Assembly: GCA_946185585.1 (NCBI GenBank)
Contig: CAMHJP010000004.1
Span: forward strand, 1 to 52,127
DNA length: 52,127 nucleotides
Reading direction: 5' to 3'
Source of the DNA: an uncultured Caryophanales bacterium
Lineage (GTDB): Bacteria; Bacillota_I; Bacilli_A; RFN20; CAG-826
Shown here: positions 41,626 to 52,127 of the stretch, in pieces
Position numbering within the stretch: position 1 is the stretch's first letter
Layout of the letters: each line of letters begins with the position of its first letter
Notes under the pieces: generated by a model
What the model was told of the DNA's origin: nothing
Databases searched by the model: none
Seen by the model: only the letters and a program-made list of their open reading frames with translations
Program-made: the position numbers and the translations under genes

Positions 41626-41656
41626 TTGTTTATTAAATTATATCTTTGTATATAAT
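41626..41656 (+). promoter_or_regulatory. Promoter of the 1405-aa surface protein (near-leaderless)
   Basis: TTGTTT (41626-41631), 19-nt spacer, TATAAT (41651-41656), ending 7 nt before the ATG at 41664. No ribosome site. The gene therefore has its own promoter and is not only read through from its neighbour. Confidence 0.6.
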
Positions 41657-41663
41657 TATAACT

Positions 41664-44600
41664 ATGAAGAAGTTTAGTATGTTTTTTAAACGAACAGTAT
41701 TTGTTGTTCTCCCTGCCCTTTTAGCGTGCAGTCTTTCAGTCGGTCACTTACACGACGTTAAACCAGTAAGTGCTGAAGGAACTACTCTTGACGAATCTGA
41801 ATATGACGTTGAGAACGAGATGTACACCATTCGTAAGACTGGTGATCACTCCCTCGAACTTTTATTCAACGCCAATCCAAGAGTATACAAAAACTTCCGT
41901 AAGAAACACTTAGATGAATTAAAAGATTCCTTAAAAGAAATTCTTAAGGATATTGTCCATACAAAAATTACTGAACTATCTGAAGTAGAAACAGACGTCG
42001 ATACCTCTTCCGTTGATGGTAAAGGCGGTCAAGAAGGCCATCCAGTTCAAGCTTACACTGGTCCAATTGAACCAGGTAACCCACAAATGGTCTATGAAGA
42101 AAACACCTATCGTACATTAAGTGTCTATCAAGAAATGATCCTTGATTACACCCAAACTGATGGTGGCGGACACGAACTTGCTCAAGTAACTGAACAAGTC
42201 GTGACTGGTTATGCTTACTACTATGTCCAAGAATACATTACTCGTAATGGATTAGAGAACACTAGCGAAATTCGTGCGAATGTCTTAAATGACTTCTGTA
42301 CCTTACTTGCTTTTAGAACTTATAGTCCATTTAACGCGACAATTAATCAAACATACGCTCAATTCCATTTCGCTGGTGAACAAATTATTTCTGATTCATT
42401 CCAAATTAATTTGAATCACATTAGTGCGATGCTTCTTCTTGTTCAAGATGATCCAACCAAAACACATGAAACAGGTGTTCGTGACTTATTAGCCACCATT
42501 GGTGGAGCAAGCGCTAAGAACGCTATTCTTGATGTTGTCAATAATGCTAGCAAAGGTGAAATCAAAAATTTCTTTGCTAACTGCCCAACAAAAGTTATTC
42601 AAGCGATCCTTCGTGAAATTGATTTTACTGGAACAGATTTAAATGACATGATGGAAAACATTGGTGTTTCTACATTCATTGAAATTGCTGGTGATATCGG
42701 TGTTGAGAAAACACGTGAAATCATTCAATACGTCAACGAATTTGATAAAACTGACTTTATTGAAAAAGTTACTGAATTAACAAAAGCCAAAGATGTTTGG
42801 AATGCGATTAAGAACATCCACATTGATGAAATTCTCATCATGAAGGAGAAAGTATTCCAATGGGATGGTATTGTTGAATTACTTGGTAAAACCGCCTCAC
42901 TTGATAAACTTCGTAACCTTGAAGATGACAAATGGAGACATAACTTCCACGTTGTTTTAGATACCGCTGTTGAAGCCGTGACGATTGATGTCAATTTCGG
43001 ATTCAAAGGCAATTGTAAATATCTTCGTAAACTTGCTGGCATCTTAGATGACCATGTGAAGATTAGCGAAGTTGATGGTCGCTATGTTGTGACTATCGAT
43101 ATGCCAAACTTCTTAGCGAACATGTATCGCTATGTGATTGAAAGCGACATCTTTAATGATGACTTAAAACATGAATTATTTGACTTAGCCTTCTCCACAG
43201 TTGAAGAAGCGTATGAACATGTTCATGCTAAGACCATCTATGATTTAGAAGAAAACGCTGCACAAATTGATTACCACAGACTTGCTGAATCAATTATTTC
43301 GGCAGATGAAATCAAAAAATTCTTCGGTATCAGTGGTTTTGTGACCCAAGAAAGAGTCGATAAATTTGTCGACCTTCTCTTTAAAGCCATTAACAAAGGT
43401 GCCGAACTTGATATTGAAAAAGTTTATGAGCTCGTTGATAAGTTCTACAAAATTCCTGATGACATGAAGGATAAGATCAACCAAATCTATGAAAAAGCTC
43501 AAAAACTTCTTAAGAAGATTGCTGATCGTAACTATAACGCTCAAGATATCCACGACTTATTAAGTGAATACACATCTGAAGAATTTAATAATCGTGTCAA
43601 CGATAAGATTGATGAATACTTAGAAAACGCGAAAGTTACTTCCTACTACAATCGTTTCCAAAGATTACTCGAAAAACTTTATGCCCATGTCCCAGAAAGA
43701 TACCGTCAAAAATCCTTAATGGATTATTATGTTGGCGATAGCGTATGGGCTGGCTCTGGTGATTTTACCTTTAACATCACCAAACTTGTTCGTAAGATTC
43801 CAAAGATTGGTCCAAAGATTGCCGATTTGCTTTCAGCATTCTTTGATAAACTTCCAGAATCTTTAAGCTTTGACTTAACATTCACTGGACACGATTTATA
43901 TCGTATTAGCTACCACGTTGGTGGTGAAGTCAAGACCGGTGCTCTTCCAATTGATGTGGAAGCTCCATTCTTTGCTAACCGTGAAACGGTTTATGAATGT
44001 GGCCAACTCCACAATATTGTTGGCTGGGCCGAACAACTTAGTGATGCTTCATACGAATATCTCTACCTCATGCCTGCTCATGACGTCGATGCATACCCAA
44101 TTTGGTTCACAACTAGTGCAGATGTGAGTAAGACTTATGATGGATTAGAATCCACCATTGAAGTGACACCAAACATTGAAATGAATCACCAATACTCATT
44201 TGTGTGGTACAAAGATGGTGTCTTATTAACTGATCAAACTGAATCATCCATCACTGTGAAAAACCACAAGGATAGCGGAACTTATTACTGTGTTGTTGAC
44301 GGAGTCAAACAAGAAGAGATTGTTGTTACAATCGACCAAGTTGTTGTTGATTTCCCAACACAAACTGAAGAAATGATTTATGATGGAATCGAACACGATT
44401 ACTACACCTCCTTTGGAGCAACTAGTGAAGATGAACTCGCATTCCATGGAACTGGTGATGTGAAAGAATCAATGCCAGGTGATTATGTCGTTGACATTGA
44501 ACTAAACGATCCAGAAAACTACGTTTGGAGTGCACCAAATGATGGTCAATATCATTGGAGTATCGGTAAACAAGTGATTATTGTTCACCAAGAAAATATC

Positions 44601-45881
44601 ATTTGGGATTACCAAGGACCATTTACTTATAATGGTCAAACTCAAGGTGTCCATCTTGTTGAATCAGAACTTCCTGCAGGTGTCCACGCTGAATACACCA
44701 ATAACGAGAAGACTGACGCTGGTACTTATAAAGCGGTAGTCCACATTGTTGCTGATAATCCAGAAACAACTGAACTTAAAGGCATTGACTTTAGTGACTT
44801 AAATTGGGAAATTGAAAAAGCAGTCATTACTATTCCAGCAGAGATGAGCCTTGTCCAGGATAAGTTTGAATACACCGGACAAGAAATCTCGGTTTCCATT
44901 AAGGAAGACCTCTTACCAGCAGAAATTACTGGTGTTAACTATAGCAAGACACGTAGTGCGACCGAAGTTGGTCAATACACTGTGAAGGTTTCATATTCAT
45001 ATGATCATACTAACTACCGTCTTGATCCAAATTACCAAAAAGAATTTAACTGGGAAATTACTTTACACCGAATTGACGTTTCTAACGTCACATGGGATTA
45101 CACCAACCCATTCACTTATGATGGCAATAGCCACAAGGTGAGCGTCATTGATGTCCCAACCGGTGTTAAAGTTGAATACACTGGTACAACCAGTGCTAAA
45201 GATCCAGGCACATACATTGCTTATGCTCGTTTATACACCTCAAGTGGAAATGAACTCATTTATAATGGTGAAATTCGTGAAACAGTCGAATTAACCTTAG
45301 TCTGGAAGATCGCCGAAGGCGCACCAGTTCCAACTCGTAGTGAATTCTACTCTGTTGAACAAAACGAAGCTGGTACATCTCTTGTCTGGGTCTCATTAAG
45401 TAGCGGCATTAAAGGTGATTACACCTTACATGCTGAAGCTACTGATGCTTCTAAATATGACTTTAGTAAGATCGTGAAGACCGGTACAGTTGATGTTGCT
45501 GTCCTTTACGACATTAATTTATTTAATGCTGATGGTTCACTAGCCCACATCAATGTTGATGCTGACGGAAAGATTATTGATCCAAACTTTAAATTTACCG
45601 TTCGTATTCTTGTTCCTGATACCTATAAGGATCATGAACTTGTCTTAGCCTATGTTAACGAGGCTGGTGAAGTTAGCCGTCTTGAAGGACAAAGAGACGG
45701 TAACTACATGGTCTTTACTACTAACCACTTATCCATTTATGGATTAGTGGAAACTCATGTTGCTGGAAGTAATCCAGCTCCATACCTCATTGTTGCTGCT
45801 GCCGCTACTTTAGCAGTTCAAGCAACAACTGCTTGGTTATTAATCGTTTTAGCAAAACGCAAAAAACGTACTGTTAAATAA
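41664..45881 (+). CDS. Giant surface protein: helical domain plus Ig/MBG-type repeats
   Basis: 1405 aa. The signal peptide ends near VSA-E (37/38). An internal LLAC could be a poor lipobox, so a lipoprotein is the alternative. Residues about 40-700 are mainly helical, with charged stretches. A Cys-poor Ig-like module (WYKDGVLL...SGTYYCVV, about 830-890) is followed by four modules of about 80 residues (890-1225). These have the MBG/YDG pattern: FTYNGQ or FTYDGN, DAGTY-type turn, and a closing W-x-I. A single C-terminal helix ends in KRKKRTVK. There is no LPxTG. It is tandem to the other surface protein and probably has an adhesion role. Confidence 0.85.
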   Translation: MKKFSMFFKRTVFVVLPALLACSLSVGHLHDVKPVSAEGTTLDESEYDVENEMYTIRKTGDHSLELLFNANPRVYKNFRKKHLDELKDSLKEILKDIVHTKITELSEVETDVDTSSVDGKGGQEGHPVQAYTGPIEPGNPQMVYEENTYRTLSVYQEMILDYTQTDGGGHELAQVTEQVVTGYAYYYVQEYITRNGLENTSEIRANVLNDFCTLLAFRTYSPFNATINQTYAQFHFAGEQIISDSFQINLNHISAMLLLVQDDPTKTHETGVRDLLATIGGASAKNAILDVVNNASKGEIKNFFANCPTKVIQAILREIDFTGTDLNDMMENIGVSTFIEIAGDIGVEKTREIIQYVNEFDKTDFIEKVTELTKAKDVWNAIKNIHIDEILIMKEKVFQWDGIVELLGKTASLDKLRNLEDDKWRHNFHVVLDTAVEAVTIDVNFGFKGNCKYLRKLAGILDDHVKISEVDGRYVVTIDMPNFLANMYRYVIESDIFNDDLKHELFDLAFSTVEEAYEHVHAKTIYDLEENAAQIDYHRLAESIISADEIKKFFGISGFVTQERVDKFVDLLFKAINKGAELDIEKVYELVDKFYKIPDDMKDKINQIYEKAQKLLKKIADRNYNAQDIHDLLSEYTSEEFNNRVNDKIDEYLENAKVTSYYNRFQRLLEKLYAHVPERYRQKSLMDYYVGDSVWAGSGDFTFNITKLVRKIPKIGPKIADLLSAFFDKLPESLSFDLTFTGHDLYRISYHVGGEVKTGALPIDVEAPFFANRETVYECGQLHNIVGWAEQLSDASYEYLYLMPAHDVDAYPIWFTTSADVSKTYDGLESTIEVTPNIEMNHQYSFVWYKDGVLLTDQTESSITVKNHKDSGTYYCVVDGVKQEEIVVTIDQVVVDFPTQTEEMIYDGIEHDYYTSFGATSEDELAFHGTGDVKESMPGDYVVDIELNDPENYVWSAPNDGQYHWSIGKQVIIVHQENIIWDYQGPFTYNGQTQGVHLVESELPAGVHAEYTNNEKTDAGTYKAVVHIVADNPETTELKGIDFSDLNWEIEKAVITIPAEMSLVQDKFEYTGQEISVSIKEDLLPAEITGVNYSKTRSATEVGQYTVKVSYSYDHTNYRLDPNYQKEFNWEITLHRIDVSNVTWDYTNPFTYDGNSHKVSVIDVPTGVKVEYTGTTSAKDPGTYIAYARLYTSSGNELIYNGEIRETVELTLVWKIAEGAPVPTRSEFYSVEQNEAGTSLVWVSLSSGIKGDYTLHAEATDASKYDFSKIVKTGTVDVAVLYDINLFNADGSLAHINVDADGKIIDPNFKFTVRILVPDTYKDHELVLAYVNEAGEVSRLEGQRDGNYMVFTTNHLSIYGLVETHVAGSNPAPYLIVAAAATLAVQATTAWLLIVLAKRKKRTVK

Positions 45882-49733: not shown

Positions 49734-50069
49734 ATGCATAAAAAACATGATTACCACATCGAAGAAACAAGAGAAATGGTCTCGATATTCAAAGACGTCC
49801 ATCTGAAATATCGTTATATCCGTAATAATCTCAAATTCTCCTCACAGGGGAAAGATGAGACATTAGCCAAGTTTAGAGACGATGTTCGTAAAATTCATGT
49901 CGCTCTCGATAGCATTAAACCACTCCAATCTTATCTTATAACGCAGTCATTTCGTGGCGATAACAAGGTTTATAACGAGTGGTGGAAGGGAATTTACAAG
50001 AAATCGACTCTTTATCGCCTACGTCATTGTGCGATTCAAGCATTCTTAAAGGAGTATCACTCATTATGA
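49734..50069 (+). CDS. Small basic protein, first gene of the Tad-like operon
   Basis: 111 aa, rich in Lys, Arg, His and Tyr, with no signal peptide and no hydrophobic helix. It looks helical. The C-terminal pattern WWKGIYKKSTLYRLRHCAIQ recalls helix-turn-helix or MG284-type small proteins of Mollicutes and phages, a weak resemblance only. GAGGGG lies 8 nt before the ATG. The stop overlaps the next start (ATGA). Its place as first gene before an exported protein and the secretion ATPase suggests a regulator or cytoplasmic accessory protein. Confidence 0.7.
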   Translation: MHKKHDYHIEETREMVSIFKDVHLKYRYIRNNLKFSSQGKDETLAKFRDDVRKIHVALDSIKPLQSYLITQSFRGDNKVYNEWWKGIYKKSTLYRLRHCAIQAFLKEYHSL

Positions 50070-51097
50070 TTAAACAAAAGCTTATTCCATTAGTATTATG
50101 CATGCTCACGTGTGGAGTTTCCTTTGGTGCGACTGAAGTACAGCGTTATCAGTTGGATTATTTTCACATTACTCCTTTTTACGCTGATAAATCCAGAAGT
50201 GTAAAAGTTCTCGCAAAACTATCAAGCAATGGTCCAGTAACAAGAAAATTAGTTAATTTTTACCTTTATAATTCGAAGTATAAAACCGGAACAAAGATCA
50301 AAAACCTTCGTCCGAATGATGAAAGTGGTCTAATTAGTGAAACATCAACCGGGACTTTAATGAGATCTGGTGAACAAAACCGAATCAAAATATTTTTTAG
50401 CGACGGTGATGGTCAGACGACAACTCACTGGTTTGACATGATTGAGGCAAATAATCCGCCTCGTTTAGTGGTTGATCAACTTCAAACAGCAACCTATGAA
50501 AGTTTTAATGTTGCATCATACACTAAAAGTAGAGGTTATTTCACGTCATCAGATAAGTATGAATTTAAAAATTGGTATGCGATAAATGAGATGAATATTT
50601 ATAACAAACTTGATGTTGGAATGTTTAGTTTTACTGAGACAATTTGTGATATTCCAATCGAGATCGAATATTACATAATTTCTATAGGAATCCCAGCAAT
50701 TTACGGTTTATTTTGTGATTTAAGGGATGACGAAATTGCTTATAACCGAGTTGAATTGAGCCTTGAATTTGTTGATGTTGGTAACCATCAATATCAACTT
50801 CAATTTAAAGATAAACTCTACGTAAATCCTTATACCTATGAAATGGCAAGAAGTCAGCTTCCAGGGTTTGTTGAAACTAAGTATCTTTATCTTCCGAAGA
50901 ATGGATTTAAAGATCTTCAAAAGCTCGATTTTACAATTTTAGGCGAAAAACTCGGAACAATGAGAATTGATTTTAGCTACTCGTTCTCCGTTGAAGCTGA
51001 ACGATCACGAATGGGAAACTGTGTTTCTTCGGAGTATTGCATTAAGACAAATGATGTCGAATTTAGTGATATTGGAAAGGAGTTAAAACATGACTAA
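50066..51097 (+). CDS. Exported protein of unknown function in the Tad-like operon
   Basis: 343 aa with a clear signal peptide (MIKQKLIPLVLCMLTCGVSFGA, cleavage near residue 22). The mature part looks beta-rich, with many Tyr and Phe, and no transmembrane anchor at the end. No known domain is recognised. AAGGAG lies 13 nt upstream and the start overlaps the preceding stop. It overlaps the next gene by 8 bases. As an exported protein translated with a CpaF-type ATPase, it may be a structural or assembly component of the apparatus. Confidence 0.75.
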   Translation: MIKQKLIPLVLCMLTCGVSFGATEVQRYQLDYFHITPFYADKSRSVKVLAKLSSNGPVTRKLVNFYLYNSKYKTGTKIKNLRPNDESGLISETSTGTLMRSGEQNRIKIFFSDGDGQTTTHWFDMIEANNPPRLVVDQLQTATYESFNVASYTKSRGYFTSSDKYEFKNWYAINEMNIYNKLDVGMFSFTETICDIPIEIEYYIISIGIPAIYGLFCDLRDDEIAYNRVELSLEFVDVGNHQYQLQFKDKLYVNPYTYEMARSQLPGFVETKYLYLPKNGFKDLQKLDFTILGEKLGTMRIDFSYSFSVEAERSRMGNCVSSEYCIKTNDVEFSDIGKELKHD

Positions 51098-51494
51098 CTG
51101 TCTTTTCTTCACTTTTGGGTTTGTTCTCTTTTTGACATTTTCATTTGGAGGAATGACGCAATCAAGTATTCATCGTTCGTTCTTAAATATGCATCGCAGT
51201 ATCCTCGAAATTAGCGTTGTTACAATTGGCGATGATGGAGAAGATGTAAAACCATATTTTAATGAACCTCAACTCGAAAAATACGTGATTGATTATCTAA
51301 AAGATAATGTTGGTAAATATTCTACAGATTATAAGGCATCAATTATTTATTTCGATGTTAGCACAAATGCAGTCAATACCACTCATCACGCCGATGGAGT
51401 TCGTATTTCTTTAACTTCAAAAATCAATATCTTTTATACCTACAAACACAGTCGTGAATTTCGGATCAATTCGAGAGGTGAAGTCAATGAATAA
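51090..51494 (+). CDS. Small membrane-anchored protein, possible pseudopilin-like component
   Basis: 134 aa. One N-terminal hydrophobic helix (about 4-22, LFFTFGFVLFLTFSFGG) is followed by an external domain of about 110 residues. This recalls TadE/TadF-type minor components, which have a single N-terminal helix, but no E5-type prepilin motif is seen, so I do not claim a pilin. Overlaps of 8 bases on both sides (with the exported protein and with the ATPase gene) imply one translated operon. Confidence 0.65.
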   Translation: MTNCLFFTFGFVLFLTFSFGGMTQSSIHRSFLNMHRSILEISVVTIGDDGEDVKPYFNEPQLEKYVIDYLKDNVGKYSTDYKASIIYFDVSTNAVNTTHHADGVRISLTSKINIFYTYKHSREFRINSRGEVNE

Positions 51495-52127
51495 AGAGCT
51501 TGTTACTTATTTAGAATCATCTTTCCTGTCACCTCTTTTAAGTGACACCGAAATTACTGATATTTCTTATAACGGAAAGGATGTTTATTATCTTCACAAC
51601 CAATTCGGAAGGAAGAAATCGAACATTGAAGTTTCAAAAGATGAGGTTGCCGTGTTTATTCGTCAAATCGCAAATTTAGCAGAGAAGCAATTTTCCTATA
51701 CTAACCCATCAATTGATGTTTCTGAAGGTAAATACCGTATCAACGCAATTCACCAGTCAATTGTTCGTGTCGAAAACGAAAAATCAATCTCATTTTCTAT
51801 TCGTATTGCATCGCCAAATAATCGCATTTTAACCAGCAAATCCTTTATGAATTCAAAAATGAAGGCCTTTTTATTAGATTGTTTAAAGAAACAAAAATCT
51901 ATTGTTATTGGAGGACCAACTGGATCGGGAAAAACTGAACTTCAGAAATACTTATTAACCTCATTAGAGGATAACAGCAGGGTAATTGTTATTGATAACG
52001 TCCAAGAATTAGAGTTCATTCGTTCTAATCCAAATTTAGATATAACATCGTGGGAAGCAAATGAAAACCACCTCAATTCCTCAATAAATGACCTAATTCG
52101 CCAGGCTTTAAGATCAAATCCAGATTG
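51487..52127 (+). CDS. CpaF/TadA-type secretion ATPase (partial, runs off the window)
   Basis: 213 codons without a stop to the end of the window. A N-terminal domain (SDTEITDISYNGKDVYYLH, as in CpaF/VirB11 NTDs) precedes the Walker A motif GGPTGSGKT (142-150), then VIDNVQELEF (Asp-box-like), and the VirB11/CpaF signature LIRQALRSNPD at the end. CpaF/TadA hexamers power Flp pilus assembly or related secretion. ATG 51487 is preceded by GAGAGGTGA and overlaps the previous gene. Walker B and the His box lie beyond the window. A near copy of the recurring motif is at 51832. Confidence 0.88.
   Translation, partial: MNKELVTYLESSFLSPLLSDTEITDISYNGKDVYYLHNQFGRKKSNIEVSKDEVAVFIRQIANLAEKQFSYTNPSIDVSEGKYRINAIHQSIVRVENEKSISFSIRIASPNNRILTSKSFMNSKMKAFLLDCLKKQKSIVIGGPTGSGKTELQKYLLTSLEDNSRVIVIDNVQELEFIRSNPNLDITSWEANENHLNSSINDLIRQALRSNPD
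51832..51842 (+). repeat. Oriented ACCAGCAAATC motif, copy in the ATPase gene
   Basis: ACCAGCAAATC, matching the first 11 bases of the 15-base form, on the plus strand. Confidence 0.35.

Follow-up and report, generated by a model that had tools for sequence, protein, structure and literature searches.

Gene content of the locus

The 3' end of a 52,127-nucleotide stretch of DNA from an uncultured Caryophanales bacterium (contig CAMHJP010000004.1 of assembly GCA_946185585.1, positions 1 to 52,127 of the forward strand, hereafter the window; GTDB lineage Bacteria, Bacillota_I, Bacilli_A, RFN20, CAG-826) carries the beginning of an operon that probably encodes a reduced filament machine of the Tad (type IVc) kind. 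The original prediction had described four tightly overlapping genes here as the start of a divergent Tad/CpaF-type apparatus, and both parts of that description held. The open reading frames, their lengths and their overlaps were borne out in the sequence (Table 1), purine-rich stretches precede the starts, and the genes open an eight-gene operon in the order o1, o2, o3, CpaF-type ATPase, TadB-like, TadC-like, o7 and o8, which joins an ATPase to platform-like, TadF-like and pilin-like genes. Because the same four genes recur in the same order in relatives, the arrangement exceeds what chance would give.

The window ends inside cpaF, at the end of its contig (C4 of genome G000 in our set), and the genome assembly comprises 689 kb in 43 contigs and is 72% complete. 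The first 55 bases of another contig of this genome, C35 (4672 bases), are identical to the window end and continue cpaF in frame to a product of 314 amino acids (aa). The junction is unbroken in relatives (loci L006, L009, L010 and others), and the possibility that the contig end conceals something else was ruled out by the 55-base overlap together with the uninterrupted operon of the relatives. On C35, o8 is followed by an acyl carrier protein gene and then by two sequences judged by eye to be tRNA-like.

Table 1. Genes of the operon on the window and on contig C35, with one further feature of the window
Feature	Position	Strand	Description
o1	49734-50069	+	111-aa basic protein, MG284/MPN403-like
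o2	50066-51097	+	343-aa exported protein; 4-base overlap with o1
o3	51090-51494	+	134 aa, N-terminal helix followed by alpha/beta head; 8-base overlap with o2
CpaF-type ATPase	51487-52127	+	first 213 codons; 8-base overlap with o3; remainder on G000:C35 (L003:56-362)
TadB-like protein	on C35		232 aa
TadC-like protein	on C35		222 aa
o7	on C35		113 aa, weakly TadF-like
o8	on C35		67 aa, pilin-like
Surface-type protein	41646-45881		1411 aa, repeated YDG-kind beta-domains, C-terminal membrane anchor; followed by two CBS/CNNM-like membrane proteins (all by eye)

Conservation of the operon

When public genomes were scanned with the ATPase fragment, 15 named loci were returned, all assigned to uncultured Bacilli, Bacillales, Erysipelotrichaceae, Firmicutes or simply bacterium, the nearest being those of Bacillales bacterium UBA4365 (99%) and Bacilli bacterium RGIG3288 (98%). 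A set of 39 distinct loci spanning the cassette was then assembled from named records (11) and other genomes (28), leaving out three repeats of a named genome and including one locus (L157) from another family of the same taxonomic order. The recognised cassette genes are co-oriented and identically ordered in 39/39 loci. All eight genes were recognised in 33 of the 39, the missed ones being o1 in three loci, o2 in three and o8 in one, and the median gaps between neighbouring genes range from -11 to +14 bases. By hand counts based on motifs, 31/39 loci have a downstream gene for an acyl carrier protein, and 27/39 are preceded by a divergent guanylate kinase-like gene. Homologs of o2 occur in 20 of 24 genomes of the same genus, and in other loci homologs range down to about 14-20% identity.

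ATPase and platform proteins

The fourth gene had been assigned to the CpaF/TadA-type ATPases, and this was confirmed: both halves of the protein match T2SSE (PF00437) over the Pfam cut-off, the best NCBIfam match is the TadA family TIGR03819 (E=5.6e-22), and the catalytic GKT, E, R and H residues are invariant among 19 homologs of 41-98% identity. The ATPase profile was found in 114/124 genomes of the family, covering 25 of 29 genera. A tree was built from 35 ATPases. Those of the order, 19 in number, formed one clade (support 100/97), with long-branch warnings inside it, and four canonical Tad CpaF proteins of the class fell into a separate clade (100/100), so that the ATPase of the operon stands in a clade of its own, apart from canonical CpaF of the class.

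The downstream genes also include the pair that a Tad system would call for, namely two tandem platform-like membrane proteins in the place of tadB and tadC. Their matches to T2SSF are weak and confined to few members (6/26 for the TadC-like protein, best E 1.1e-4; 1/26 for the TadB-like protein, best E 6.3e-5). No TadZ/CpaE or RcpC/CpaB gene was seen among the operon genes, a genome-wide search for these not having been made.

Pilin-like proteins

Pilin candidates are likewise present downstream, as the TadF-like o7 and the pilin-like o8, whose homologs measure 45-73 aa. The o7 protein of the window operon gives a sub-threshold Pfam TadF match (E=6.4e-4), and within its family PF16964 (TadF) is matched at E<=0.1 by 8/32 members (best 2.4e-4) and TadE by one. 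Most of the 32 members start M-[SAG]-x-K and pass straight into the helix, with an invariant Asp23. The o8 proteins lack the Glu at mature position 5 that characterises Flp major pilins, and no Pfam Flp match was obtained among 36 members. A small second residue, as in o7 and o8, would permit removal of the initiator Met.

The model of o3 (predicted local distance difference test score, pLDDT, 88.1) shows a helix at residues 2-32 followed by an alpha/beta head. A fold search gave no match at E<=0.001, and a second aligner placed pantothenate synthetase domains first (Z 6.8). Considering this pilin-like topology, o3 may be an unrecognised minor pilin and is treated below as a candidate leaderless one.

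The position of the helix was recorded by a simple hydropathy scan, from which short or wrongly started copies had been removed beforehand by length limits. The helix starts at residue 1 in 37/41 o3 and 32/35 o7 proteins and at residues 1-4 in 39/39 o8 proteins, and in eight canonical Tad pilins of the class it starts at residues 11-30, behind leaders ending G|Q. The six residues at the start of o8 leave two readings, a leaderless protein or one trimmed by some other peptidase.

Prepilin peptidase

Among the components looked for downstream was a prepilin peptidase, and no such gene lies inside the operon and almost none was detected across the family. Peptidase_A24 was found in 4/124 family genomes, all four among the 114 that bear the ATPase, which leaves 110/114 with no detectable A24; within the genus the count is 1/24. 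The same profile was positive in 12 of the 14 named genomes that served as controls, and across the class it detected A24 in 162 of 395 sampled genomes. The A24 loci that were opened, two with PilC-like genes (L072 on G002:C12, and L093) and one with an FTLVE-type pilin gene (L094; genes named by eye), are separate classical type IV pilus or competence clusters. The reading did not extend to the A24-bearing locus of G425, and the match in G357 is partial and falls short of the cut-off.

A second, Bacilli-specific profile built from eight A24 proteins of the class gave three strong matches in the 124 family genomes. Its weak matches in G415, G418, G447, G476, G438 and G461 were rejected by eye as S-component-, MgtC-, permease- or HAD-like proteins, G427 and G463 on this list being left outside the reading. 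Weak A24 matches in G017 and G001 were also discarded as permease-like and false. When the Pfam A24 model was relaxed to E<=10 in the 24 genomes of the genus, it returned a separate pilus cluster, a stop-interrupted frame and two permease-like false matches.

A class-wide comparison was made by hand count from the sample of 395 genomes, taking an ATPase match at E<=1e-40 as strong CpaF. Strong-CpaF genomes carry A24 in 55 of 58 cases outside the order versus 2 of 44 inside it (Fisher p 1.5e-22, a value that is only nominal because the genomes are related). The proposal that the A24 enzymes outside the order cut the pilins of short-CpaF loci was set aside as unproven by co-occurrence, and as some of these enzymes sit in canonical Tad loci, the comparison speaks to the detectability of A24 only.

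Short-CpaF Tad-like loci also occur elsewhere in the Bacilli, in families f13 (L170, L174, L175, L177), f21 (L171, L179) and f16 (L173). Their pilin-like proteins start M-[KR]-x-x-x-G or are leaderless, Gly falling at position 6 or 7 in some of them, and three f13 genomes (G105, G339, G365) hold such an ATPase with no A24 detected. These very short starts indicate that reduced leaders may extend beyond this order. In another locus, L185 (G028:C17, 5190-13500), VirB4-, PrgI- and VirB6-like genes lie next to a short CpaF, TadB/TadC-like genes and two small membrane proteins that look leaderless (all named by eye), an arrangement suggestive of a Tad-like module within a conjugative element.

The first two genes

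The original prediction held that the three proteins ahead of the ATPase do not resemble standard Tad components, and no profile puts any of them in a known Tad family. Its further proposal that they may be lineage-specific failed for o1. The o1 protein matches NF045770 (MG284/MPN403) with E=4.2e-8 and 33.0 bits, below the curated cut-off of 37.3, which o1 of two genus relatives (G018, G021) exceeds, and the NF045770 family is present in 102/395 sampled genomes of the class. Profile comparison of the o1 family with mycoplasma MG284-type proteins by hhalign gave a probability of 98.9 (E 2e-17). The alignment shows a conserved C-terminal motif, L..II.N.F....WW..YYS.STYYR.R..A...F, and o1 is probably a small DNA-binding regulator.

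The model of o2 (pLDDT 69.8) contains two beta-sandwich domains, at about residues 26-130 and 163-312, and a low-confidence tail that bears a conserved C..S.YC motif. No Pfam family was found for o2, and its fold matches are generic, to immunoglobulin (Ig), transglutaminase and filamin domains with a best Z of 6.1, as befits a common arrangement. A role in adhesion or tip display may be suggested for it.

Sister families

In nine genomes of the sister families f2 and f3, neither an ATPase match at E<=1e-10 nor A24 was found. Six of their loci were read and contain o1, o2-like and o3-like genes, a gene for a single membrane protein (255-371 aa) and o7; no o8 was recognised in the six. Against family profiles built without sister sequences, hhalign gave 97% for the sister o2, 93% for o3 and 97% for o7, with reversed controls at 0.1-5%, the sister o7 having first been located with the family profile. 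The sister membrane protein reached 31% against TadC (reversed control 0.3%) and did not rise above the reversed control against TadB, and Pfam T2SSF was matched in 0/6. Given that these loci match o2, o3 and o7 and have no ATPase, an ATPase-less form of the cassette exists. Family f4 (L157) has the full ATPase form, in which o2 was not recognised. In the f2 loci L159, L160 and L163, the ATPase-less cassette adjoins mutM/coaE- and polA-like genes in place of those for guanylate kinase and acyl carrier protein (by eye).

Relation to mycoplasma genes

Family f18 consists of 0.7-1.0-Mb genomes, most with TGA codons within the frame that matches NF045770, and these were taken as mycoplasmas. Twenty loci were fetched, 19 from f18 and one from f25. 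Two proteins usually come after o1, the first of about 240-400 aa and the second, which has a helix at its N-terminus, of about 140-230 aa. NCBIfam names them MHO_1580 (NF045960; three genomes scanned) and MHO_1590 (NF045957; two scanned), and in 14/20 loci an acyl carrier protein gene, identified by motif, comes next. The mycoplasma loci resemble the operon in the o1 family, gene order, size classes, the helix of the third protein and the downstream acyl carrier protein gene, and differ in that ATPase, platform and pilin genes do not follow. Profile comparison gave a probability of 0.2 for MG285-type proteins with o2 and of 1.2 for MG286-type proteins with o3, no better than unrelated comparisons; the best local alignments of each pair fall in the matching region. 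A kinship of MHO_1580 and MHO_1590 to o2 and o3 is accordingly offered as a lead, on the grounds of like order, size and acyl carrier protein neighbour.

MG284 to MG287 are neighbours in M. genitalium. A literature search on MG284-286/MPN403-405 yielded only unrelated uses of these names. In loci of f16 and f21 (among L042-L071), MG284-family proteins occur without Tad genes, some next to a ptsI-like gene (by eye).

Comparison with known systems

With the Tad/Flp (type IVc) systems the operon shares a CpaF/TadA-type ATPase, a TadB/TadC-like pair, a weakly TadF-like putative minor pilin, a small pilin-like protein and a compact organization. It differs from them in having no TadV and no visible TadZ/CpaE or RcpC/CpaB gene, in the o8 without Glu5 and the o3 and o7 without leaders, and in the additional o1 and exported o2. 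Canonical Tad loci of the Bacilli (L181, L182, L184), which represent the same machine type in the same class of bacteria, possess TadV and genes like those for CpaB/RcpC and CpaE; their CpaF measures 450 aa, and their pilins bear G|QxxxE leaders. Apart from A24 and CpaF, the components of these loci were named by reading of the sequences. A canonical tadV-containing locus is also described for Bulleidia extructa (PMC12786226).

MSH-type pilus loci without a prepilin peptidase of their own have been noted, in genomes where another system supplies one (Denise et al. 2019, PMC6668835). The operon is like them in having no such gene at the locus, whereas here nearly all genomes are also without a detectable enzyme. 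The peptidase is counted among the ancestral components of type IV filaments (Denise et al. 2019, PMC6668835). According to a 2023 review, processing of the prepilins has to precede assembly, and the leaders of type IV prepilins end as a rule in Gly or Ala (PMC10191384). One phylum, the Nanoarchaeota, is reported to have prepilins with no peptidase detected (Berry and Pelicic, PMC4471445), so that the absence seen here has an archaeal precedent. The operon is not described in the literature covered on peptidase-less or leaderless pilins and on Tad pili of these groups, a coverage outside which most subscription papers lie.

Interpretation

Judged from the sequences, we regard it as moderately probable that the operon encodes a divergent filament machine of the Tad type (type IVc), minimal in its parts and running without an A24 prepilin peptidase, in a lineage of small-genome gut Bacilli. 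In such a machine, the ATPase, with its conserved motifs, would form a CpaF-type hexamer and drive the TadB/TadC-like platform, for which the profile matches are weak. The platform would pull the small pilin-like o8 from the membrane, capped by the minor-pilin-like o3 and o7, and the exported o2 with its two Ig-like domains would be displayed at the tip or the surface for adhesion, under regulation of the operon by o1. For o3 and o7, the simplest account of the missing A24 peptidase would be that both are made pre-trimmed, with the hydrophobic helix running from the first residues, as their N-termini show. The six-residue start of o8 would either form part of the mature pilin or be removed by another enzyme. 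The function of the machine is probably adhesion.

Several results weigh against this reading. The score of the ATPase lies far under the curated cut-off of the TadA model TIGR03819, and profile ranking against the PDB puts archaeal GspE-2 (2oap, 6.5e-29) and VirB11 (1g6o, 2.6e-27) above CpaF (8rkd, 7.6e-19). For o3, no shared Pfam family, no TadE or TadF match and no pilin family were found among 34 members, and its pseudopilin fold matches (Z 4.6) are level with those to unrelated enzymes. The only model matched by o8 is the archaeal Pilin_N, in 2/36 members (best E 0.068). The N-terminus of o8 reads M-[SGA]-E-x-[KN]-[GA] in 46/46 rows, with Gly6 in 45 and Lys5 in 45, and this six-residue start has the length and the Gly ending of a class III leader, which suggests a cleaved prepilin and a further peptidase to cut it.

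The conservation of the Lys-Gly start while the protein bodies diverge, together with the usual ending of type IV leaders in Gly or Ala (PMC10191384), speaks for a Tad machine in which o8 is still cut after Lys-Gly by a non-A24 or over-diverged peptidase encoded elsewhere. This alternative is possible, if on the unlikely side: no candidate came from the permissive Pfam search of the genus (24 genomes, E<=10), which returned only the matches described above, or from the Bacilli A24 profile, whose six weak matches that were read are other proteins; o3 and o7 carry no leader that such an enzyme could remove, and one o8 has Ala6 and another Asn5.

The ranking of GspE-2 and VirB11 above CpaF, and the adjacency of a related short CpaF and TadB/C-like genes to VirB4/PrgI-like genes in L185 (by eye), would fit a VirB11- or GspE-like translocation device for protein secretion or DNA transfer, with no filament. 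We consider such a device improbable, given that no VirB4/VirD4-like, secretin or coupling gene was seen by eye among the operon genes and that three small proteins with N-terminal helices, one of them with TadF matches, are present in almost all loci.

A decaying remnant on its way to the ATPase-less version would be in keeping with the two sister families that retain o1, o2, o3 and o7; with the catalytic residues of the ATPase invariant and the eight-gene order kept across the sampled genera, decay appears very unlikely. That the organisms possess a peptidase which incomplete metagenome assemblies have lost, as the 72% completeness of the window genome might suggest, is scarcely credible in view of the genomes with completeness of 90% or more and contamination of 5% or less, where A24 is in 4/119 and the ATPase in 109/119, of the inside-versus-outside counts for strong-CpaF genomes, and of the single-contig genome G261, in which the ATPase is present and A24 was not detected.

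Set against these alternatives, the minimal Tad-type machine without A24 remains the preferred reading. What is new is the family-wide lack of A24 combined with leaderless minor-pilin-like proteins, the sister form that lacks the ATPase, and the MG284 family as that of the first gene. In a wider scenario, which we put forward as speculative and doubtful as a whole, the lineage would build Tad filaments from pre-trimmed pilins without a peptidase, o1-o3 and o7 would persist in the sister families as an ATPase-less membrane module, and o1-o2-o3 would be ancestral to mycoplasma MG284-MG286.

If the preferred reading is true, the lineage offers a naturally minimal Tad machine, and one that retains motor, platform and pilins without the peptidase would open the part played by the leader to direct testing. 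It is the view of leader cleavage as a required and ancestral step (PMC10191384, PMC6668835) on which such a lineage would bear. The reduced sister versions and the o1 family held in common with the mycoplasmas would, in addition, provide a lead on uncharacterised mycoplasma genes.

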